From the NCBI GenBank assembly GCA_003139995.1, contig PLIC01000139.1, positions 2,110-45,442 on the forward strand: a stretch of DNA of 43,333 nucleotides. Reading direction: 5' to 3'. Made by a program: the position numbers and the translations under genes. Below the pieces are notes generated by a model, which made no database searches, was not told the DNA's origin, and saw only the letters and a list, made by a program, of their open reading frames with translations. The DNA comes from Candidatus Acidiflorens stordalenmirensis. Its GTDB lineage: Bacteria; Acidobacteriota; Terriglobia; Terriglobales; Acidobacteriaceae. Of this stretch, positions 9,431 to 23,950 are shown piece by piece (the stretch's first letter is position 1; the number at the start of each line of letters is the position of its first letter).

Positions 9431-9609
9431 GGAAAAACCTCAGATGATTCCACGACCTGAGTCATTCTACGCGATCATGTTGCCGTGGGAAGAAGTCGCA
9501 CCGTGGCAATGCCCATCGATGGCGGAACGGTTGTCCTCGCCCCGGGCTGCCGATGGTGTAGAATCTGAAAGTCAAACTTCACGCTGCCATCCTCAGCAGC
9601 GGAGTCCGT

Positions 9610-9686
9610 CGGGACGTAGCGCAGCCTGGTAGCGCACTTGCTTGGGGTGCAAGGGGTCGCCGGTTCAAATCCGGCCGTCCCGACCA
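9610..9686 (+). tRNA. tRNA-Pro (anticodon GGG), left copy
   Basis: The acceptor stem CGGGACG pairs with CGTCCCG, the anticodon stem CTTGC/GCAAG encloses TTGGGGT (anticodon GGG), and the T arm has GGTTCAAATCC. CCA is encoded at 9684-9686. A TAGAAT -10-like box lies about 45 bases upstream in host DNA, so this copy is probably the expressed one. It forms the left boundary of the mobile element. Confidence 0.96.
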
Positions 9687-9689
9687 TTT
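9610..9689 (+). repeat. attL: 80-bp direct repeat (left)
   Basis: Bases 9610-9689 are identical to 18842-18921 along all 80 positions: the whole tRNA-Pro gene plus TTT. The next bases differ on both sides. It is read as the left attachment site of the integrated element. Confidence 0.88.
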
Positions 9690-9816
9690 CAGAACACAGC
9701 AGTTACGCGGATTCCTCTCCGGCCCCGAATACTAAGGCAAGGGGTCAATCCGCGCAAGGCTTTTTCTTGCACGCTCACCCTCACGAGCTATAAGCGGGCC
9801 TACGATATTTTTGGGC

Positions 9817-9843
9817 TTGACAACAGTTCCGATATAGTAGTAA
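9817..9843 (+). promoter_or_regulatory. Possible promoter at the left end of the element
   Basis: TTGACA (9817-9822) is followed after 15 bases by TAGTAA (9838-9843), 27 bases before the first element gene. The -35 box is perfect but the spacing is short. The rest of 9690-9869 shows no gene. Confidence 0.35.
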
Positions 9844-9869
9844 TCTCGTGAATAAGGGGAGGTAGCCCG

Positions 9870-10373
9870 ATGATGATGGTGGCCGGACTACAGAAGTCAG
9901 GCGAAAAGAATCTTATGGCTCCCACGTGGACAGAAGCCGCGAAGGTCCGAAGAGTATTCAAAGCAGGACGGCAACGGCAAAAGGACCGCCTTCTCACCCC
10001 AACGGCGGCAATCTATGAAACGTGCATTCTGCTGGACAAGCTCCGTGAGGCGATGCATGACGCCAAGCTAGACCCGGATGACGTGCGTGCTTACCTCGTT
10101 GTGGGCGCTGAACCAAAGCTCGGCGCGGAATTGGTATCGGGCAAGGTCATTGTCATCCCGCCGCCAAAGCGATTGCCCGAAGTATTCCGAAAGGTGGAAG
10201 CGATAAGGGAGTCACGGATGCTAGGAATTGTCTTCCACCAAGCAGACCGCGACCCGAAGGCCAAGGCACCGTTTTCCGTGTGGGTCCATCCGTTTATTAT
10301 CGGCACCTTGGCCGAGAGAGTATTGCTGGAGGCTAGAAACAGAGTCGCGCAAGGAAAGGCGCTGGACAACTAG
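9870..10373 (+). CDS. Element protein of unknown function (167 aa)
   Basis: I do not recognise this protein. It is soluble, mixed alpha/beta and Lys/Arg-rich near the N-terminus (KVRRVFKAGRQRQKDR); a central segment reads DDVRAYLVVGAEPKLGAELVSG, followed by a Pro-rich KVIVIPPPKRLPEVFRK. There is no signal peptide or membrane helix. The start is well supported by GGGGAGG at 9856-9862, seven bases before the ATG; a second Met at residue 16 is a weaker alternative. It is the first gene inside the left end, downstream of a possible promoter, and is followed by a GC-rich hairpin near 10389-10413. Confidence 0.72.
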   Translation: MMMVAGLQKSGEKNLMAPTWTEAAKVRRVFKAGRQRQKDRLLTPTAAIYETCILLDKLREAMHDAKLDPDDVRAYLVVGAEPKLGAELVSGKVIVIPPPKRLPEVFRKVEAIRESRMLGIVFHQADRDPKAKAPFSVWVHPFIIGTLAERVLLEARNRVAQGKALDN

Positions 10374-10496
10374 AGCAGAAAGAACAATGGCCCCGGAGCG
10401 CCAACTCCGAGGCCGGGTAGCAGGTCAAAACGGACACGCGCTAACGCATCACGGTTTTGCTTTGCCATTTTTATTATACCGCGAAAGGTGAAACAG

Positions 10497-10817
10497 ATGG
10501 ACCGCATAGAACAGATCGCATGGGACTCCGAATATGCCATGGCCGTGCTTGGCAAGGGGACAGACTTTCTGCTGGTGGACCTGGATACGACGATGCCGGA
10601 GGAAGTCAGGCAAGACGCGGTGACTCGGGGCTATCGCTTCTGTGGAATTTTCGGATTCAGGAACGGACGCACGGAGTCACAATTCGAGCCGGACCCGGAG
10701 GCATTCGCCGTGATGAACTGCGCGTTGTTTCGCTTCGTGCAACTTGTGGCCTCGAAACTAACACACGTGGATACGTTGGAGCGGCTGTATCGACTCCCGG
10801 ACACGCGCGAGAACTAA
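10497..10817 (+). CDS. Element protein of unknown function (106 aa)
   Basis: This small acidic protein has no recognised domain. It shows an alternating pattern: a helix (DRIEQIAWDSEYAMAVLG), a hydrophobic strand (DFLLVDLDTTMP), then RGYRFCGIFGF and a C-terminal helix (MNCALFRFVQLVASKLTHVD). The ATG at 10497 is chosen over a GTG at 10488 because AAAGGTGA lies six bases upstream. The stop is followed at once by the self-complementary CCCCGGTTCCGGGG, whose right arm touches the ribosome binding site of the next small ORF. A virion or regulatory role is possible but not shown. Confidence 0.68.
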   Translation: MDRIEQIAWDSEYAMAVLGKGTDFLLVDLDTTMPEEVRQDAVTRGYRFCGIFGFRNGRTESQFEPDPEAFAVMNCALFRFVQLVASKLTHVDTLERLYRLPDTREN

Positions 10818-10844
10818 TCCCCGGTTCCGGGGAGGAAAACAAGA

Positions 10845-10949
10845 ATGGCGCACGCAAAATTAGATCGCTGTCGGCGCGCCCATCGTGCGAAGTACAGAGT
10901 TTTGGAGTTTGCCCTGCAAAACATCGCACGGCACGGGGCACGCGCCTAG
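10845..10949 (+). CDS. Small basic ORF (34 aa) in the element
   Basis: This 34-codon ORF encodes an Arg/His/Lys-rich peptide starting MAHAKLDRCRRAHRAKYR. It has a strong GGAGG at 10831-10835, nine bases before the ATG, immediately after a CCCCGGTTCCGGGG hairpin that could hide the ribosome binding site. No family is recognised. The support is only the translation signal, gene order and basic composition. Confidence 0.4.
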   Translation: MAHAKLDRCRRAHRAKYRVLEFALQNIARHGARA

Positions 10950-11037
10950 CGCTGCCCCACAAGTTCAAAGAGCTGCCCGACTAAACAGGGTCGGGCCTTC
11001 GCGCTAGCTGCCCCTAATACGGGGACGGGGAGGCACG

Positions 11038-11088
11038 ATGCAGCAAACCGGATTGCCCGAAATGGCGGACGGTACCTCAAAAATCTAG
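11038..11088 (+). CDS. Possible 16-codon leader ORF upstream of the capsid gene
   Basis: A 16-residue ORF (MQQTGLPEMADGTSKI) starts four bases after a GGGGAGG and stops eight bases before the capsid start codon, next to the AGGAG used by the capsid gene. It could be a translationally coupled leader peptide. The evidence is limited to the strong ribosome binding site and placement. Confidence 0.3.
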   Translation: MQQTGLPEMADGTSKI

Positions 11089-11096
11089 GAGCAGTC

Positions 11097-12380
11097 ATGA
11101 AATCGCTTTTTGAACTGAAGCAAGAACGTCAAATCGCTTTGGACGCTTGCGAGACAATCCTCGCACGTGCCGAAGCCGCCAAGCGCAATCTCACCGCGCA
11201 AGAATCTCAACTGATGGACAATAATCTGTCATCCGTCAAAGAACTCAACCCAAAAATCAAGAAAATCGAATCTGACAACACAATCCTCCGGTTTGATCCC
11301 GTCACCCTCATGGGAGGGGGCACACCATCCGCCCACACACCCACGGCGACACAGAAGCCGATGAGCACCGAGTACACTGAATCGTTCCTGAGCTTCCTCC
11401 GAAGCGGCGGAAAGCAAGCAACGAGCGCTCTCAGTGAGGGCTTCGACCCCATGTTCGGCGGCTTTGCATTGCCCAGTCTGTCTGCTGCATCATACGAAGG
11501 CGGGTCCACTGCGGGCGGCTACGCAGTCTCCGTCCCAACCGATAGTCTCATCGTGCCTTTGGCTCTCCCGGATTTAGGGGTTAGATCAGTTGCCAAAGCC
11601 ATTCCTACGCTCACCGACATCAAAATTTCAAGCCAGTCCACATTCGGAACGGCGGGCTGGAAGTCTGAGAGTTGGGGCTCCAACGCCCAAAACCTCTTCC
11701 CGGAAAGCGACCCAAGTCTCGGTCAGTTCACGCTTTCGGCGTTCATGACCGGCCTAACCGATACCGTGAGCTGGGAATTACTTCAGGACGTTGCCCTGTT
11801 TCAAGAGTTCGCGGTGCGCGACCTTTTAAACGCCGTCGATATCAACGAAGATAACGCTTTTGTTAACGGCAACGGCACCGGACAGCCGCTCGGTTTGGTT
11901 GGCAACACGGCAACCGGAACGGACTCGCCGTACCTCGTCGAATCGACTGGCGTTTATCTCCTCAACGCCATAGATGACGTACTGGGTACCCTCAAGGGAG
12001 GCTACTTCCCCTTCGCCGCTTGGCTAATGAGCCGGGCAACCGCAACAGCGATTCGGAAGGCACAGCGTCAAGCAAACTTGTTTGCACCTGTGTTTACGCG
12101 CGAGAATGGTCGAGATCTTTTGCTCGGCTTCCCGGTGAGTTACAGCTCGAACATGCCAGCACTCCCAACCGCAACCAACGCGGGCGTGGTGCCGATCTTG
12201 TTCGGGAGCTTCCAGGACGGCTATGTCATTGGTGATCGGGGCGGATCAGGGACATTTGTAAAAATTCTGGACCAACCCCTGGCCACTGCTGGACAAACCA
12301 TCCTGTTGGCTTACAAGCGAGTCGATGGACGCGTGAGACGGTCTGAAGCAATTCAGGCTATCACCATTTCTCACACCTAA
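11097..12380 (+). CDS. Phage major capsid protein, HK97 family
   Basis: The 427-residue product has the layout of an HK97-fold capsid protein. The N-terminal helical region (about residues 1-65, with AKRNLTAQESQLMDN) resembles the delta/scaffold domain normally removed by a head protease. The shell domain follows, with PTDSLIVPLALPDLGVRSVAKAIPT, the E-loop-like AGWKSESWGSNAQ, VSWELLQDV and VNGNGTGQPLGLV, and ends in the typical VDGRVRRSEAIQAI. The start has AGGAG just upstream. No capsid protease or portal gene is next to it, so maturation and DNA packaging would need factors from elsewhere, for example a helper phage. Confidence 0.9.
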   Translation: MKSLFELKQERQIALDACETILARAEAAKRNLTAQESQLMDNNLSSVKELNPKIKKIESDNTILRFDPVTLMGGGTPSAHTPTATQKPMSTEYTESFLSFLRSGGKQATSALSEGFDPMFGGFALPSLSAASYEGGSTAGGYAVSVPTDSLIVPLALPDLGVRSVAKAIPTLTDIKISSQSTFGTAGWKSESWGSNAQNLFPESDPSLGQFTLSAFMTGLTDTVSWELLQDVALFQEFAVRDLLNAVDINEDNAFVNGNGTGQPLGLVGNTATGTDSPYLVESTGVYLLNAIDDVLGTLKGGYFPFAAWLMSRATATAIRKAQRQANLFAPVFTRENGRDLLLGFPVSYSSNMPALPTATNAGVVPILFGSFQDGYVIGDRGGSGTFVKILDQPLATAGQTILLAYKRVDGRVRRSEAIQAITISHT

Positions 12381-12492
12381 CCAATATTGTCCCCACTCGG
12401 CGGGGCCCGCTGTGACTCGGTAACGGGCGCACGGGAAAGCCGGGGCGGTCTTCAGCGTACCGTTTTCAAAAAGCGCTGACCTTTTCGTACAA

Positions 12493-12540
12493 CACCGGCT
12501 CTCTCCGCTTGTGCAGAGCGAGCGGTTTTGGGGGCCGGTG
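12493..12540 (+). promoter_or_regulatory. Nested hairpin in the leader of the tape-measure gene
   Basis: CACCGGC (12493-12499) pairs with GCCGGTG (12534-12540), and inside it CCGCT (12505-12509) pairs with AGCGG (12521-12525). The gap 12381-12564 has no gene and holds further GC-rich short stems. The hairpin ends 24 bases before the ATG at 12565. It may be an RNA processing, attenuation or packaging structure; the role is unknown. Confidence 0.45.
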
Positions 12541-12564
12541 ATCTTTCTCTAAGAGGGTAGCCAC

Positions 12565-14433
12565 ATGCCAGTCATCGGAACTTTGACAGTCAACTTGGAA
12601 GCCAACACCGCGAGTTTTACCGGTGACTTGGGGAAAGCCTCGGGCAGCCTGAAGGTGCTAGCCAATGACGCCGAGGGTGCGGGTGAGACCGTAGACTTTT
12701 CCATGCGGGATGCACGCGGCTCCATGATGCTGTTAGGTGAGGAAGCCGGTATCCACGTCCCCCGCGAACTGCGTACTCTCATTGCCGAGATACCGGGAGT
12801 GGGTGAGGCCTTCGCCGCACTCGTACCCCTCATAGGCGCTGTGTTCGCCTTGGGCATGATTTACAAGTTCGTGGATGCTCACAAGCGCGCAATTCAAGAC
12901 TTGTCCGAGGATGAGAAAACGCTGTACGACAACGCCACAAAAGGCGCTGAGAAGTTTCTAAGAGCGCAGGAGGGATCAATCAAGGCCGCGTACGCGTTGG
13001 CTATTGCACAGGCGTCCGGTGATCCCGTGCGGCAAGCGCAACTCCGGGTGGACGAGATGCGAGCTATCGGAGTCGCACAAGATCAGAATATGACTCAGTT
13101 GATCGCCGAGCGTGAGGTGCTGCGCGGCATCGTGACCCAGGAAGAAAAGAAGGCCCAAGTTATAAAGGATTCAGCCGGGCACAATGCGCGCACGGGGCAA
13201 AAGTACACCGTGGATACCTCCGACGAGGATGAGAAGGCGCAGAAGGCTCGCGACAAAATTAACGAGCTTAACGATCTGATTATGGCCGCTCGGGATCACG
13301 AAAAGGAGAGCCAAGCACAGCTCATAGACGGCGAGTATCACGTGAGCGAAGTGATAGCTTCCCTGGCCTCAAAAGATGCGGCGAAACAGGCCGAGGCATT
13401 TAGAAAGTCTAGCGAGATAATGCACCGCGCCATGGAAGAGCGCAAAAAGGCAGCCGAGGAATCCGTACGGTGGGACAGAGAGACCACTGACATTGCAGAA
13501 GAACTGGATAGAAATCTCTGGCGCGACCGGGAGAAGCGAGCCAAAGAGTTCCAAACCGTGCAGCAGAAATTGGCAGAGGAAGATCTGCGACATTCCACGA
13601 CAATGGCCAGGCTGCAAGAGTCCGCCGACGAACAGGCGGACAAGCACGCCCTGGCCATGCACCAAGCCACCGCACGGCAAACAATGGAAGCGGAAATTAA
13701 GGCATCACAAGACCGCCTCACCGTCGAGCTGGCCGCGCTCGACCGCGACATCGAAATCCAGAAGCAAAAAGGCGAACAGGGCGTGGCCGCGTTGCGTGCC
13801 GACGAAAACAAGAAAACCGAGCTCATTAAACAGGCCGCTAACGAGCAAGCCAGAATCCAGAAAGATGCCGAGAAAAAGCGAGCGGACGATGTGCACGCGG
13901 CTGAGCTGGAGATGGCTAACGACATAGCCAAGACTTCGGTACAAAGCATCATGCACGGTAAGAACATGGCGCAAGCCTTTGAGCGCATGGGGTCCGAGAT
14001 GCTGGAATCCGCGGCGGAATACGCGCTCAAGATAATTCTGCTCAACAAAGAGGGGCAGTTATCGGACGCCTCGTCGGCGGCCACGGCGGCCTTTAAGGCC
14101 GTGTGGAAAGCGGTGCCCTTCCCCGCTAGTGCCGTCATGGCACCCGCCGCCGCTATCGGGGCTTTCACCGGGGCTATATCATTCGAGTCCGGCGGCGAGA
14201 TACCCGGCTTTGGCGCGGTGCCCATCGTGGGTCACGGTGGTGAGACGGTCATTACCAAGCAACTAACGGACCAAGTAAAGAACAGCGCGGGCGGGGGCAA
14301 CGTGCATCACTTCCATTTCGCCCCGCAGATACAAGCCTTGGACTCGGAAGGCATGGACCGGGTGTTGGACAAGAACATGGACAAATTTACCCGCCGGATT
14401 GGCTCTGAACTGCGCAACCGGAACCGGAGGTAG
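12565..14433 (+). CDS. Phage tail tape-measure-like protein
   Basis: The 622-residue protein opens IGTLTVNLEANTASFTGDLGKASG, a typical N-terminus of lambda/Mu-type tail length tape-measure proteins. A hydrophobic patch follows at about residues 70-100 (GVGEAFAALVPLIGAVFALGMIY), then a very long charged coiled coil at about residues 200-470. The C-terminus has a second hydrophobic patch and FESGGEIPGFGAVPIVGHGGETVI, a glycine-rich motif common at tape-measure C-termini. It lies directly after the capsid gene; the genes normally found between capsid and tape measure (connectors, tail tube, assembly chaperone) are absent. A coiled-coil structural protein with another virion role is an alternative. 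Confidence 0.8.
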   Translation: MPVIGTLTVNLEANTASFTGDLGKASGSLKVLANDAEGAGETVDFSMRDARGSMMLLGEEAGIHVPRELRTLIAEIPGVGEAFAALVPLIGAVFALGMIYKFVDAHKRAIQDLSEDEKTLYDNATKGAEKFLRAQEGSIKAAYALAIAQASGDPVRQAQLRVDEMRAIGVAQDQNMTQLIAEREVLRGIVTQEEKKAQVIKDSAGHNARTGQKYTVDTSDEDEKAQKARDKINELNDLIMAARDHEKESQAQLIDGEYHVSEVIASLASKDAAKQAEAFRKSSEIMHRAMEERKKAAEESVRWDRETTDIAEELDRNLWRDREKRAKEFQTVQQKLAEEDLRHSTTMARLQESADEQADKHALAMHQATARQTMEAEIKASQDRLTVELAALDRDIEIQKQKGEQGVAALRADENKKTELIKQAANEQARIQKDAEKKRADDVHAAELEMANDIAKTSVQSIMHGKNMAQAFERMGSEMLESAAEYALKIILLNKEGQLSDASSAATAAFKAVWKAVPFPASAVMAPAAAIGAFTGAISFESGGEIPGFGAVPIVGHGGETVITKQLTDQVKNSAGGGNVHHFHFAPQIQALDSEGMDRVLDKNMDKFTRRIGSELRNRNRR

Positions 14434-14435
14434 GA

Positions 14436-14729
14436 ATGAAATTGTCTTTTGATGTGGAACTGCCGGAGCCGTTGTTTCAGGAAATGCTTGACGCGTGCGC
14501 CGAGCGAGAGTGCCATCGCACGACACTGGCGGGCGAAGCTTTGGAATGCTTGCTGGCCGCGCGCCGCTTGCCGAGGGCTTACATACCCCGGCTCACCACA
14601 GGCACTCAATTGCGTGGTACACGCGGTCACTCCGGGCATGAGGTAGAGCGGGAATTTGAGGACGCGGAAGACGCGGGCCTCACAACGCATCGGTTGCTGC
14701 TCCCGAGGGACACTGTGGAGATGCTGTGA
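14436..14729 (+). CDS. Ribbon-helix-helix-like small protein
   Basis: The 97-residue product begins with a strand (MKLSFDVELPEPL) followed by two predicted helices (FQEMLDACAERE and TLAGEALECLLAAR), the order found in MetJ/Arc-type ribbon-helix-helix DNA-binding domains. The second half is polar and unrecognised. The start overlaps the end of the tape-measure gene region, with GGAGG at about 14427. It may regulate the element, but a binding site is not known and the family call is by pattern only. Confidence 0.55.
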   Translation: MKLSFDVELPEPLFQEMLDACAERECHRTTLAGEALECLLAARRLPRAYIPRLTTGTQLRGTRGHSGHEVEREFEDAEDAGLTTHRLLLPRDTVEML

Positions 14730-15589
14730 AGTGCGAGGTACTTGACGGGCAGCCCATATTCGTGGACACGCGCTGTCTAAGTTGCAACACCGAGATGGGA
14801 GACGACCGTCCCGCGCGCGCTCTAATATGTCGGAGGGCCACACAATTCCCCGAAACCGCTGACCGCGTTTGGCTTCTATCCCGCAATGGCCTCTCCGTTT
14901 TTCACAAGGTATGCCGCGCTAAAGCCTGTAGTAGTTTTCTGGAGAATCCGCTGTTGCGCCCGGCACCGGACCCAGATGTCATTTTCGAGGATTCCATATA
15001 TCACCGGGGGGCCATGCGGTTCCTGTCCGGGACTGTGGTGGAAAGACCGCAACCTGTCCGTGCACTGACGTTCTTTCAGGATGCCCGCAGTCTCCAGATG
15101 AAGCAATTTATCAAAGATGAATCTGGGCTGCGGAGTTTCTGTGAGTACGTGGATACTTGGGACGCTTTGCGCTGCGTAGGAGCCTGGAGCGGCCAAGAGG
15201 AAATTGACGCGGTGCATCATTACGCCTGCCTATTCGCACAAGAGACATCCAAGGACAGCGGCGTGTGGATGCCCTACTGGTTTCTAGATGCGCGGCTCAA
15301 TGGCCCCAATCGTGTTGTGTACCTAATCAAAGGCGGGGAGAGCTATCAGGGCGCGGTGATGATGGACACATTGGGTTATTCCACTCTGGCTTGGGTTTGG
15401 CTCACTCCCCGGCTTCGCAGACGGGGGATTTTTCGCGCGGTCTGGCGTGGCCTGGAAAGCTATCACAAGGGTTTCAAGGTTCTCGCGCCCCTGTCCACAT
15501 CAATGAGGGCATTTCTGAGACGCGAAGACGCCGAGGGAATACACGAAATTGTGACGGAGACGGGGTGTCCAAGTGCAGATAAGCATTGA
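14726..15589 (+). CDS. Element protein with Cys-rich N-terminus and GNAT-like C-terminus
   Basis: The 287-residue product starts at a GTG whose last two bases form part of the previous TGA, so the genes are translationally coupled. The N-terminal 70 residues hold CLSC, a lone Cys, and CRAKAC, which could form a zinc site. The C-terminal 90 residues (VVYLIKGGESYQGAVMMDT, then AWVWLTPRLRRRGIFRAVWRGL and PLSTSMRAFLRRE) resemble the GNAT acetyltransferase core, with RRRGI at the acetyl-CoA loop. Neither domain is certain. The gene overlaps the primase-helicase start by 17 bases, which suggests a shared operon and perhaps a role in replication or host takeover. Confidence 0.6.
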   Translation: MKCEVLDGQPIFVDTRCLSCNTEMGDDRPARALICRRATQFPETADRVWLLSRNGLSVFHKVCRAKACSSFLENPLLRPAPDPDVIFEDSIYHRGAMRFLSGTVVERPQPVRALTFFQDARSLQMKQFIKDESGLRSFCEYVDTWDALRCVGAWSGQEEIDAVHHYACLFAQETSKDSGVWMPYWFLDARLNGPNRVVYLIKGGESYQGAVMMDTLGYSTLAWVWLTPRLRRRGIFRAVWRGLESYHKGFKVLAPLSTSMRAFLRREDAEGIHEIVTETGCPSADKH

Positions 15590-17363
15590 CGCGGTAAAAA
15601 AGCAACGCCGTTTTGTTTGTTGGAATCGTGAGGTAGTCAAGGGCAAGGAAACCAAAGTCCCTTACATGCCCTCGGGCTGCCATGCGAAGTCCAATGGCCC
15701 AGCCACATGGTCCACGTACGCGGAATGTGAGGCCGCAACCGGCTTTGACGGCATCGGAATTGTGTTAGGCCGCGTGGATGGCGTGCCGGTTACCGGCGTT
15801 GACTTCGACGAATGCTGTGATGCCTTCGAGGGTCACTTCACGCCGGAGTCACGAAAGACGATAATCGCCCTGGACTCCTACAGCGAATACAGCCCCAACG
15901 GATACGGGGCGCACGTTCTCTGCTTGGCGGACTTTCCCGAGGAATACCGAGGCGTCAACACCGGTAAAAAAGGTGACTCCATCGTGCGGCCCGGCCCGGA
16001 CTTCAAGCAAATTGAAATCAAAGGCTCGGGATTCTATTTCACGCTGTCTGGCCGTCATCTGAGCAAGACCCCAGCGGACCTGATGCCACGGCAAGAGCAG
16101 ATTAACGCGCTGTGCAAGCACGTGGCTGGAATGCAGGCCAAGCCGGGCATCGTGGTGAGTGCGGGCACCGAGGAAGAGAAATACCGCAAGCTGATGGCCG
16201 GGGATCTCAGTGACTTCGATGGTGACCACAGCCGGGCGGACTTGACCCTGTGCAACCTTCTCGCGCGGAGACTCAACAACAATTCTTACGCTATCGACGC
16301 GGCGTGGCTCAAATCCCCGCTCTATCGGGAAAAGCTGGAGCGCGAGGATTACCGTTCCATGACCATCCTGAAGGCCATCAAGGGCGGCGCGCTGGTTTTC
16401 GACGAAGAGGAACCGATGGATGAAGACGCGCCCACAATCTGGACAATCCAACCTCTCCCGAAACGTGAGGAAGGGTGGTTTCCATTGGGTGAGGTGTCCT
16501 TGGTAGGTGGTCCGAGCGGCGCGGGCAAGACGCATTCCTTGCTGCGAATGGCTGAGGACGCGCGGCAAGGCCGAGAGACGTACGGGCACGCCACCACGGC
16601 TAGCGACTACTGCCTCCTTCTACATGACCGCAGTTCCGCATCGATGCGGCGGACGTGCAACGCGGCCAAGCTACCCGTTCCCGTTGACGAAATAATGTCC
16701 CGCGTCATCCGTCTCACGCGAGCGCAACAGAAAGAACGCCCGGCTGCTGTTATAGAGGCCATGATACAAAGCCGGCCCGGTGTGAAACTGTGGATTTTAG
16801 AGGGCTTGGACTTCTGGACTCCCGATTTGCACAAGCTTGACGCCGTGGGTGACGTGCTGGACGAATTGCAGCGCGTGGCAAAACAGTACCGGGTTGCCAT
16901 CGTGGGCACGTTGGGCAGTCCCAAACAGAAAGAGAATGACCGCTATGCCAGCGGGCGTGACCAGTTCATGGGCAGCGTAGCCTTCGGGCGCAAGAGCGAA
17001 ACCTGCATCAGCATAGAAAAAACGGCGGATAAGAATGTCCGCAAGATGAATGTCATGCCACGGAATACGGCGAAAGAGGAATTTTTCTTTACCTGGACAG
17101 ACGCAGGACTGACGCTGACCACGGAACCGAGCGAACCGGATACAAAGGATGAAAATTCGGCGCTTGCCCGAATGGAAGCACAGGTTTTCGCAGCCACACC
17201 GGTTGGTGAAGAGCTGAAATACCACAAACATTTCGGCTCGGCATCCGCGTTCTTTCGCTGGAGACGAGTGGCGCAAGCCGAGGGCAAGGTCACGCTGTCG
17301 GGCAAGAAATACTATCGCGCGTATGCCGGTGGTGTTGAATGCGGGGAGGATGCGGTTCAGTGA
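15573..17363 (+). CDS. Primase-polymerase/helicase fusion (NrS-1-like AEP domain plus RecA-like ATPase)
   Basis: The 596-residue product appears to be the element's replication protein. Residues 1-150 look like an archaeo-eukaryotic-type primase-polymerase: KVPYMPSG, GIGIVLG, the acidic GVDFDE motif, and SYSEYSPNGYGAHV (SxNGxGxH). About residues 205-270 (ADLTLCNLLARRL, then SPLYREKLEREDYRSMTI) match the helical domain found in NrS-1 phage polymerase relatives. The second half is a RecA/AAA_25-type ATPase with Walker A GGPSGAGKT and Walker B-like LWILEGLDFW. The GTG start at 15573 overlaps the previous gene. TTGACATGA repeats lie just downstream. A helicase loader rather than a helicase is possible. 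Confidence 0.82.
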   Translation: MQISIDAVKKQRRFVCWNREVVKGKETKVPYMPSGCHAKSNGPATWSTYAECEAATGFDGIGIVLGRVDGVPVTGVDFDECCDAFEGHFTPESRKTIIALDSYSEYSPNGYGAHVLCLADFPEEYRGVNTGKKGDSIVRPGPDFKQIEIKGSGFYFTLSGRHLSKTPADLMPRQEQINALCKHVAGMQAKPGIVVSAGTEEEKYRKLMAGDLSDFDGDHSRADLTLCNLLARRLNNNSYAIDAAWLKSPLYREKLEREDYRSMTILKAIKGGALVFDEEEPMDEDAPTIWTIQPLPKREEGWFPLGEVSLVGGPSGAGKTHSLLRMAEDARQGRETYGHATTASDYCLLLHDRSSASMRRTCNAAKLPVPVDEIMSRVIRLTRAQQKERPAAVIEAMIQSRPGVKLWILEGLDFWTPDLHKLDAVGDVLDELQRVAKQYRVAIVGTLGSPKQKENDRYASGRDQFMGSVAFGRKSETCISIEKTADKNVRKMNVMPRNTAKEEFFFTWTDAGLTLTTEPSEPDTKDENSALARMEAQVFAATPVGEELKYHKHFGSASAFFRWRRVAQAEGKVTLSGKKYYRAYAGGVECGEDAVQ

Positions 17364-17369
17364 GTGTGT

Positions 17370-17511
17370 GAGTGTTGACATGACACAGTGAGAATACCTT
17401 CCTATATATATATTCATGTCAACTCTCATACAAGAAGAGGGTTGATGCATTCTGTGGCAAACAAACACGTTACGGGCGCTGAAAGTCGCCTGCTACTTGA
17501 CATGACACAGT
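17370..17511 (+). repeat. TTGACATGA repeats (iteron- or operator-like)
   Basis: TTGACATGACACAGT occurs at 17375-17389 and again identically at 17497-17511. An inverted copy lies at 17414-17427, so GAGTGTTGACATGA (17370-17383) and TCATGTCAACTCTC (17414-17427) form a 14-bp inverted repeat with one mismatch. An AT-rich TATATATATAT tract lies between the arms. The sites follow the primase-helicase stop and flank the start of the next small gene, fitting an origin or an operator. Confidence 0.65.
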
Positions 17512-17645
17512 TGCTTTTTGGACCGCTGCTGACTCTATCAAGTCAAGCGGAGAGCAGAAATCAGGTCGTGTTGTGTATGGCAAAGCTGGCCGGGCTCACA
17601 CGCCCGCGCCTGGAATCGTGGCATAACACAGGCGGGGGTGGTTAA
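17445..17645 (+). CDS. Small element protein (66 aa), unknown function
   Basis: The ATG at 17445 has GAGGG six bases upstream, and the reading frame runs 66 codons. The product is helical with a hydrophobic centre (SRLLLDMTQLLFGPLLTL) and a C-terminal half (VVLCMAKLAGLTRPRLESWHN) that could be a helix-turn-helix, but no family is recognised. It starts between the repeated TTGACATGA sites, which also overlap its beginning, so it may be controlled by them or bind them. Confidence 0.45.
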   Translation: MHSVANKHVTGAESRLLLDMTQLLFGPLLTLSSQAESRNQVVLCMAKLAGLTRPRLESWHNTGGGG

Positions 17646-17663
17646 GCAATCCACATAGGGGGT

Positions 17664-17816
17664 ATGCCGTGGATGGTAAGAAATGTTAAAAGGGAAGCAC
17701 TCGAAGCCCACCGTCGACCTATTTTTTACGTGAATGAACAATTTCTCAAAATGAGATTTTTCAATAGAATCAGCAGTTTACGCCACCATAACCAGAAAAT
17801 GACCGAGCGCAGTTAA
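17664..17816 (+). CDS. Possible small basic ORF (50 aa)
   Basis: A 50-codon ORF starts after AGGGGGT at 17664 and encodes a strongly basic peptide (MPWMVRNVKREALEAHRRPI at the start). It lies between the 66-aa gene and the 3' end of the integrase, where an excisionase would be expected, but no excisionase motif is visible. A short hairpin with a T-run (TCTCA AAA TGAGA TTTTT, 17744-17761) lies inside it, which argues against it. Confidence 0.28.
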   Translation: MPWMVRNVKREALEAHRRPIFYVNEQFLKMRFFNRISSLRHHNQKMTERS

Positions 17817-17943
17817 GAAAAGCACCATTTCGGCCTCATTAGCAAGCGCAGGACGAAAAACCCATGCCAGAGTGCCATCCCGCCGCAACTATGCGCCAGA
17901 ACGCACCGGAAGGCCCGCACGGGCCATTCACAGCGAGCCGATT

Positions 17944-18792
17944 TCACGATGCCAGTAGGCTAATCCGCTGATGCACCGCCTGGAGGTCCGAGGTTACGAG
18001 ATTGCAATACCGCTTCGTCATCTCCAGCGTACTGTGGCCGAGCACCTTTTGCAGATGGAACACGGACCCACCACGGCGAAGGTAATTCACAGCGAACGTA
18101 TGCCGAAAACTGTGCAACGTGCGCCCTGGAGGGACAAACCCCAACCGCCCGCACAGTAGCTTCACGTCACGGAGCATCACCCGCCGCCCCAATCGCGTTT
18201 CATTCTTGCTCGCCAGTAAGAGCGCATCCGGCTTGCGGGCGCCATCACGGATGAATCGGAACAATGCTCTTTTCAGCTCAAAGGAAAATGGAACCATGCG
18301 CTGCTTGCGTCCCTTGCCGTCCAGCGTGATGAGCAGGTTGTCAAAATCAATCTCACTCACACGAAGACTGAGGGCCTCCGTGATTCTGCATCCCGTGTCC
18401 AGCAAGAGCAGCACAAGCACGTGCAACCGCCGCTGATAGAGATTTTTGGGTTTCCAGTTTATGAGCAAGGCTGCTTGCTGCACCGTCAACGTGGGCAGAA
18501 TCAATTGCGGCTCTTTGAGTGGTGGGATGCGTAGGTGCCGGCAACCTGGACCGCACTTACGCTCTCCCGCGCTGCTCCAGTGGAGATAGGAATTGATGGC
18601 CCGGATTACGGAGTTGCAGCCGGTTGCCTTCAGTCCGCGCTCACGCATCTTGAGCACCGCGTCTTTCAGCTCATCAGCCGAGGGGGTCTCCGTGGGCAGC
18701 CATTTCAGCGTGTGCTTGTACCACTCGATTGTTGCAGGGGAAACATTGTGCAAATACTGACGTTCACGGATGAACTGCGAAAAGCCGCCCAT
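17944..18792 (-). CDS. Tyrosine recombinase/integrase
   Basis: This 282-residue integrase would insert and excise the element at tRNA-Pro. The N-terminal SAM-like DNA-binding domain spans about residues 1-90. The catalytic domain shows the Arg of TGCRITEALSL, the Lys of GKGRKQRMVPF, HSFRHTFAVNYL (HxxR), LGHSTLEMT and the Tyr nucleophile in KRYCNL. The ATG at 18792 is chosen because GGGAGG lies about five bases upstream. A longer open frame to 18969 merely translates the antisense strand of the tRNA. It is the only minus-strand gene of the element and its 5' end lies about 50 bases from attR. Confidence 0.92.
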   Translation of the reverse strand: MGGFSQFIRERQYLHNVSPATIEWYKHTLKWLPTETPSADELKDAVLKMRERGLKATGCNSVIRAINSYLHWSSAGERKCGPGCRHLRIPPLKEPQLILPTLTVQQAALLINWKPKNLYQRRLHVLVLLLLDTGCRITEALSLRVSEIDFDNLLITLDGKGRKQRMVPFSFELKRALFRFIRDGARKPDALLLASKNETRLGRRVMLRDVKLLCGRLGFVPPGRTLHSFRHTFAVNYLRRGGSVFHLQKVLGHSTLEMTKRYCNLVTSDLQAVHQRISLLAS

Positions 18793-18841
18793 GCGCCCTC
18801 CCGAGGCAAGTACCCAATTTGGGAGGAAACCCGCATAAACG

Positions 18842-18918
18842 CGGGACGTAGCGCAGCCTGGTAGCGCACTTGCTTGGGGTGCAAGGGGTCGCCGGTTCAA
18901 ATCCGGCCGTCCCGACCA
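18842..18918 (+). tRNA. tRNA-Pro (anticodon GGG), right copy
   Basis: This copy is identical to 9610-9686 including the encoded CCA, so it is structurally complete. No convincing promoter is visible in the 50 bases upstream, which are the leader of the divergent integrase gene. It may be silent or read from within the element. Confidence 0.93.
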
Positions 18919-18921
18919 TTT
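18842..18921 (+). repeat. attR: 80-bp direct repeat (right)
   Basis: This is the identical partner of 9610-9689. Identity ends after TTT (18922 is A, 9690 is C) and before the first C (18841 is G, 9609 is T). The crossover point within the 80 bases cannot be located. Confidence 0.88.
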
Positions 18922-19082
18922 ACTTCCCCGTGTATCCGGTGGCGGGCCAGTGGCTCGGCCTGCCTCCAATTGCTGAGAGCTAAACTACAGCGGGCCGCAA
19001 CCAGTCCTTCGTGATCTCCGCTCTTGCATTTTTCCTGCGTTTGGAGCAACGTTTTCACCGTGAAAGGAGTGCCCCCGAAATC

Positions 19083-23872: not shown

Positions 23873-23950
23873 GCTGTTCGTCGGTCGCTGTTCGCGAGGA
23901 TCATTTGCATGGCGAAAAGCGAATAGCGAACGACGAACAGCAAACAGCAG
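23873..23950. repeat. Inverted heptamer array between secD and secF
   Basis: The left arm is GCTGTTC, GTCGGTC, GCTGTTC (23873-23893). The right arm is AGCGAAT, AGCGAAC, GACGAAC, AGCAAAC (23918-23945). Twenty-four-base arms pair with about three mismatches. It fills most of the 107-base gap between the two genes of one operon. Confidence 0.78.

Follow-up and report, generated by a model that had tools for sequence, protein, structure and literature searches.

Based on the evidence presented here, positions 17365-17546 of the window (the whole stretch of 43,333 nucleotides that was analysed) are best explained as a candidate replication origin, a reading that we consider quite likely, in which this segment serves an integrated element of about 9.3 kb and is read by the winged helix of the element's own primase-helicase. 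The origin reading is favoured because relatives of the element keep a layout of paired repeats, in different letters, beside the same replication gene. According to this proposal, the primase-helicase would use its C-terminal winged helix to bind two inverted TTGACATGA pairs, 122-124 bp apart; site binding would lead to assembly of the RecA-type helicase on the DNA, the first pair's TATATA tract would melt, and the PrimPol domain would lay the first primers. Binding, melting, priming and origin activity are inferred by analogy with the named precedents discussed at the end of the text. The features concerned are the following.

9610-9689, plus strand: left attachment repeat (tRNA-Pro ggg), 80 bp exact
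15573-17363, plus strand: primase-helicase gene, 596 aa, proposed initiator, with PrimPol domain, HBD, RecA-type ATPase (AAA_25) and C-terminal winged helix, from profile matches and structure prediction
17145-17330, plus strand: codons of the predicted C-terminal winged helix, proposed repeat reader (AlphaFold2 model m519acfa216eb, mean pLDDT 71)
17365-17383, plus strand: left arm of inverted pair A; TTGACATGA at 17375-17383 is the first part of the 15-mer at 17375-17389
17403-17414, no strand: AT-rich tract TATATATATATT inside pair A, candidate melting site, from the AT content of 20-mers
17414-17432, minus strand: right arm of inverted pair A, with TTGACATGA at 17414-17422
17445-17645, plus strand: 66-aa ORF over pair B, probably a remnant, from the reading frame and a 16-residue match in L019
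17497-17511, plus strand: left arm of inverted pair B, the exact second 15-mer, 122 bp from the first
17532-17546, minus strand: right arm of inverted pair B, the imperfect copy TTGACTTGATAGAGT
17944-18807, minus strand: tyrosine integrase of the element (PF00589)
18842-18921, plus strand: right attachment repeat (tRNA-Pro ggg), 80 bp exact

The element is an integrated, phage-like one of a soil bacterium, bounded by an exact 80-bp duplication with tRNA-Pro(ggg) genes at 9610 and 18842. Besides the primase-helicase and the tyrosine integrase it encodes a major capsid protein of the HK97 type (PF05065), a 622-aa product that weakly matches a tape-measure protein, two unknown ORFs and a further two ORFs; the capsid and tape-measure-like ORFs occupy 11097-14433. 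Among the nine ORFs scanned, the capsid protein, the weak tape-measure match, the primase and the integrase were the sole matches, and none matched a portal, protease or terminase. Two related elements deserve mention for their gene content. One, on an IMG/VR contig (L034:1844-12058), is 10 kb long, lies between two tRNA-Val genes and carries an S49 peptidase, a portal, a capsid, a frame-broken primase and an integrase of the same family; it looks like a capsid-encoding satellite. The other (L020:11755-16151) is a tRNA-Pro element with two large ORFs that by eye resemble type III restriction modification and restriction subunits.

The first repeat site starts 12 bp 3' of the primase-helicase stop. 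The exact 15-bp direct repeat on which the original prediction was built, TTGACATGACACAGT, is present at 17375-17389 and 17497-17511, and the inverted copy and the AT-rich tract inside the palindrome that it had described were likewise found, the former as TTGACATGA on the minus strand at 17414-17422 and the latter as TATATATATATT between the arms of pair A. The 20-mers around this tract are up to 80% AT, and the stretch between pairs A and B is 50% AT. The dyad had been taken for a near-perfect palindrome of 14 bases; it is real, but its length was understated, the arms (17365-17383 and 17414-17432, 30 nt apart) being 19 nt long and 89% complementary. A fourth copy had been overlooked: TTGACTTGATAGAGT, on the minus strand at 17532-17546, is imperfect (3/15 mismatches) and has a weaker, inverted core at 17538-17546. 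Read from left to right, the sites are oriented + - + -, that is, as two inverted pairs (A and B), and the step from pair A to pair B is 122 bp for the left arms and 124 bp for the right arms.

When up to three mismatches are allowed, the 15-mer has three matches in 43 kb against 0.51 expected, a number reached by 1/100 shuffles. The 9-mer TTGACATGA at up to one mismatch is not enriched window-wide (10 found against 7.0 expected; 15/100 shuffles reach 10), and 4/10 of its matches are clustered within 172 bp. For the 300 bp 3' of the primase stop, neither the best-pair nor the summed repeat score was reached by any of 200 dinucleotide shuffles; among 566 other 300-bp stretches of the window, 11 reached the summed score and three the best-pair score. 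The three overlap one another and all show a single inverted repeat, at 23873/23919, and a repeat pair as strong is found at just this one other place in the 43-kb window. The 23-nt inverted repeat at 23873-23941, between secD-like and secF-like genes, has the window's top repeat score. The GC-skew check that had been suggested lends no support to the origin reading: the cumulative maximum at ~17,696 lies beside the repeat region, but its sign would conventionally mark a terminus, and it falls where convergent genes meet.

Relatives were sought through the primase. By genome, it was matched in 8/150 (family), 11/397 (order), 12/398 (family, E 1e-20) and 6/396 (phylum), tallies whose sets overlap and whose cut-offs differ, and within single genera in 3/62, 1/15 and 1/45 genomes; the named matches (best four of six) are Acidobacteriaceae or Acidobacteria MAGs. 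An initial viral scan with the single primase protein gave no match, and in phage and plasmid records no place covered 80% of the primase query, the matches listed being to the PrimPol half. The repeat test comprised the nine loci with the helicase/winged-helix part (the window, L018, L020-L025 and L034); more distant PrimPol-only or helicase-only matches (L026, L027, L032, L033, the G139, G108, G055 and G407 matches, four genomes outside the family) were left out. L054, which was found by a 17-base pattern from L020/L034, was rejected as a relative, being unrelated and without a primase match.

The letters of the repeats are not shared by the related elements. The 15-mer is absent from all eight other primase loci examined, and its 9-mer core occurs only once among the primase relatives, in L021, ~7 kb from its primase. 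In IMG/VR the 15-mer is found in 32 stretches with one copy in each, and therefore no second element with the doubled repeat was found there. Among 24 genomes of the genus, DNA matches to 17340-17700 are confined to its own genome and a single stretch of 46 bp in the L019 contig. Shared words were compared in the primase-downstream gaps of eight loci, with L034 and L019 omitted as near-duplicates. TATTGAAAA is exact in 4/8 gaps (window 17758-17766 on the minus strand, L020, L022 and L024), a number that none of 6 shuffle sets reached (maximum 3), and GGGGCGGGT is present in 3/8. These may be further conserved words of the origin region; longer shared words, with mismatches allowed, did not clearly exceed the shuffles.

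The layout, in contrast to the letters, recurs. Repeats specific to each element are present 3' of the primase in 7/9 loci, immediately in five and, in two, 0.5-0.7 kb further on with a short ORF in between; two loci have none. In the 300 bp 3' of the stop, the repeat scores of the window, L018, L022, L023 and L024 beat shuffles (0-3 of 200 reach them), and those of L020, L021, L034 and L025 over the same 300 bp are not above shuffles. L020 and L034 appear empty just 3' of the primase because short ORFs intervene; when the whole primase-integrase gap is considered, their best pairs are reached by 0/100 and 1/100 shuffles, respectively. The two loci without significant repeats are L021 (18/100 shuffles reach its best score) and L025 (59/100), whose divergent protein lacks the PrimPol domain. 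L022 has TTGACAG as an inverted pair at +15/+48 and then ATGACAG as another at +135/+156. L023 has TGAGAC at -42/-17 and then TTGAGAC at +74/+92 facing +100/+118, and L024 has GCGTGACGA at +14, inverted at +48 and again at +162. In L018, CCTCAC is present at +2 and +60 and inverted at +67 and +175; it should be noted that the top repeat score of this locus rests mostly on an ACT-repeat hairpin and that the CCTCAC sites are weaker. L020 and L034 share a non-coding 165-bp stretch, 0.5-0.7 kb after the primase, with poorly aligning flanks, that contains an inverted GGTAC pair (701-738 in L020) and a GTAC-bearing pair 114 bp further on. Two inverted pairs are seen in the window, L022, L023 and L034, and a pair plus one more clear copy in L020 and L024. 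The like-arm step is 108-124 bp in the loci where both arms are readable. The AT content between the two site sets is 63-68% in L022 and L024 and 49-59% in the window, L018, L020 and L023. The original prediction had named the absence of the repeats from otherwise similar elements as evidence against it. This absence holds for the letters (0/8 other loci), whereas the architecture recurs, and we do not regard the former as decisive because for cognate initiator/origin pairs it is the architecture, not the letters, that counts.

The spacing was analysed by summing repeat evidence by distance over 6/9 loci, with the region fixed at -60 to +260 from the stop and with L020 and L034 (displaced repeats) and L025 (divergent) left out. 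The peak, a score of 15, lies at 120 bp and was reached by 0/2000 control-window draws from the same loci, in which the maximum was 13 over all distances and 11 at distances of at least 60 bp. An earlier run, in which the L020 region was placed by hand, peaked with 19 at ~30 bp and gave 15 at 120 bp, against at most 9 in 120 shuffles. Letters that change while the spacing is held resemble cognate protein-DNA pairs, and a hairpin, a terminator or a chance repeat would not account for the combination. That the repeats arose by chance, or are relics of a decaying element, could be argued from the fact that the exact 15-mer occurs in none of the relatives found and that the pattern is missing in 2/9 loci. 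We give this explanation very little credence: besides the shuffles of the window (0/200) and the control draws for the shared ~120-bp spacing (0/2000), it has to contend with the non-coding stretch of L020 and L034, which is 83% kept (137/165 identical) as compared to 78.7% identity for their primase genes. The inverted arms could also pair in RNA, so that the region would act not as DNA bound by a protein but as a stem-loop of the primase transcript (a terminator or another RNA element). Such a stem-loop is very unlikely, given that 17200-18000 contains no terminator-like site (GC-rich stem plus T run), that 9500-19000 has no Rfam match except two tRNAs, and that the third copy is a direct repeat; moreover, same-strand copies, needless for a hairpin, recur 114-117 bp away in L024 and L023.

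If the pairs are protein-binding sites, the question is which protein reads them. The primase is the sole one of nine window proteins that matches in L018 and L020-L025 alike. The integrase is matched in L020, L022 and L034 and weakly in L025 and L027, with both primase and integrase matched in L034, and the 66-aa and 97-aa RHH-like ORFs have no match in L018, L020-L027 or L034. As the next gene, with homologues that accompany the primase in L020, L022 and L034, the integrase might be thought to use the repeats as arm-type sites, or an excisionase might bind them, for recombination at the attachment site. This is highly improbable, since the right attachment repeat is ~1.3 kb away with the integrase gene in between, and since L023 and L024 have repeats but no integrase match (E 1e-3, 20 kb of each). 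We also consider it unlikely that the dyads are a transcriptional operator through which a small regulator (the product of the 66-aa ORF, of the 97-aa RHH-like ORF or another) controls the surrounding genes. Inverted pairs are typical of operators, and the 66-aa frame begins between repeat copies; this frame, noted in the original prediction, is indeed present at 17445-17645, inside an 85-aa frame. However, the dyads lie 3' of the primase and not ahead of the element's main genes, there is no sigma-70-like promoter at the sites (two promoter-like matches lie at 17721-17770), and the layout persists in relatives in which neither small ORF is matched. The suggestion that the 66-aa protein binds the repeats is not supported: the only relative found for it is a 150-aa ORF of L019, which neighbours a different helicase and matches over 16 residues of its C-terminal part, and the 66-aa ORF is probably a remnant and not the binder. 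The other suggestion, an origin bound by the primase-helicase, is supported by the layout, which recurs beside the same primase while other genes differ, and by the predicted winged helix.

For the C-terminal 80 aa of the primase, AlphaFold2 predicts a helix-helix-strand-strand winged helix with moderate confidence (mean pLDDT 71). The best structural alignments of the model are to a GntR regulator (Z 7.3) and to the MCM5 C-terminal domain (Z 6.9), middling values that are common for such small domains, and Foldseek gave weak matches (best E 0.065). On this evidence the winged-helix fold is likely, and the predicted domain is proposed as a natural reader of such sites. The PrimPol and HBD region matches the solved phage primases 6a9w, 6k9a and 7rr3, which we take to be NrS-1 enzymes, with profile E of about 1e-26 to 2e-26, NrS-1 type primases being the nearest solved structures to the PrimPol part. 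The RecA part gave only short Walker-region profile matches to KaiC. The full-length structure model was poor (mean pLDDT 51, PrimPol part <50) and was kept out of the fold search; families missing from the fold-match lists are not excluded by their absence there.

L019 comes from the same genome as L018 (G269). Its replication gene is a D5_N helicase (PF08706), directly 3' of whose stop an AT-rich tract is enclosed by a large, imperfect inverted repeat (0/100 shuffles). The two contigs start at the same point of a tape-measure-like ORF and end in near-identical sequence, having in common the N-terminal part of that ORF and the right-hand sequence, and their differing replication genes, PrimPol-RecA in L018 and the D5_N helicase in L019, point to an apparent cassette exchange. 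Because L019 has another helicase and its own repeat, helicase and repeats seem, in this one case, to have been swapped together. A broader picture, possible if on balance doubtful, would be that of an acidobacterial phage/satellite family with a paired-dyad origin, in which two inverted sites, separated by ~11 helical turns, would place two rings of a PrimPol-RecA-winged-helix protein that is self-sufficient, reading, opening and priming the origin alone; from element to element the letters would vary together with the winged helix at a constant spacing, and initiator and origin would be swapped between otherwise similar elements as one cassette, as in L018 and L019. With the present analysis, a lone repeat becomes a recurring layout that is recognisable in related elements by its geometry and not its letters. 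An initiator of one protein, approachable by experiment, is paired in Acidobacteriota with a candidate origin of compact size (~180 bp), and the divergent cognate pairs would be a ready set for how winged-helix initiators change specificity.

In the open-access literature we found no description of such origins, nor of a satellite origin, in Acidobacteriota. A classical iteron plasmid origin was considered and rejected: only two copies are direct, the rest being inverted, and the initiator is a PrimPol HBD plus AAA_25 protein and not Rep_3/RepA. The region resembles the origins of PICIs and SaPIs in its place and two-set plan. As described for PICIs, these lie directly 3' of the initiator gene (compare the 12 bp noted above) and consist of two sets of short, element-specific iterons around an AT-rich region (PMC6092414), and in SaPIs it is the C-terminal domain of the initiator that is reported to recognise the sites (PMC6092414, PMC7581432). 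The initiator type and the paired-dyad layout differ: the sites here form inverted pairs that recur after about 108-124 bp, the AT tract of the window is enclosed by the first pair and does not lie between the sets, and the initiator is a PrimPol plus RecA-type ATPase in place of the SaPI helicases. In SCCmec, the C-terminal domain of the helicase Cch2 is described as binding a repeat region downstream of its own gene, a putative origin (PMC7581432). Cch2, however, is a Primase_Cterm/D5-type 3'-5' helicase, for which that account gives the direct repeats as needed and the inverted repeats as not, and the D5_N helicase of L019 is closer to it than the window protein is. The Vibrio PLE, a satellite, is described as having its own initiator and, in a non-coding region required for its replication, semi-palindromic repeats (PMC7145576), but that initiator is RepA_N and, as presented there, without primase or helicase, and the layout of its repeats is another. 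The NrS-1 phage primase-polymerase shares the PrimPol and HBD region with the window protein and is reported to begin DNA synthesis at specific template sites (PMC8718748). It carries another C-terminal helicase, and its recognition sites (TTTGGTTA, GTG) are described as priming sites in the template strand, not dyads. Finally, the AEP primases of mobile elements (PolpTN2 and PrimQH families) combine, according to PMC5862659, the primase, often an ATPase, and a C-terminal winged helix in one chain, as the window protein is predicted to do, and origin recognition has been proposed for this winged helix; they differ in that the PrimPol part of the window protein is nearest to the NrS-1 type among solved structures.
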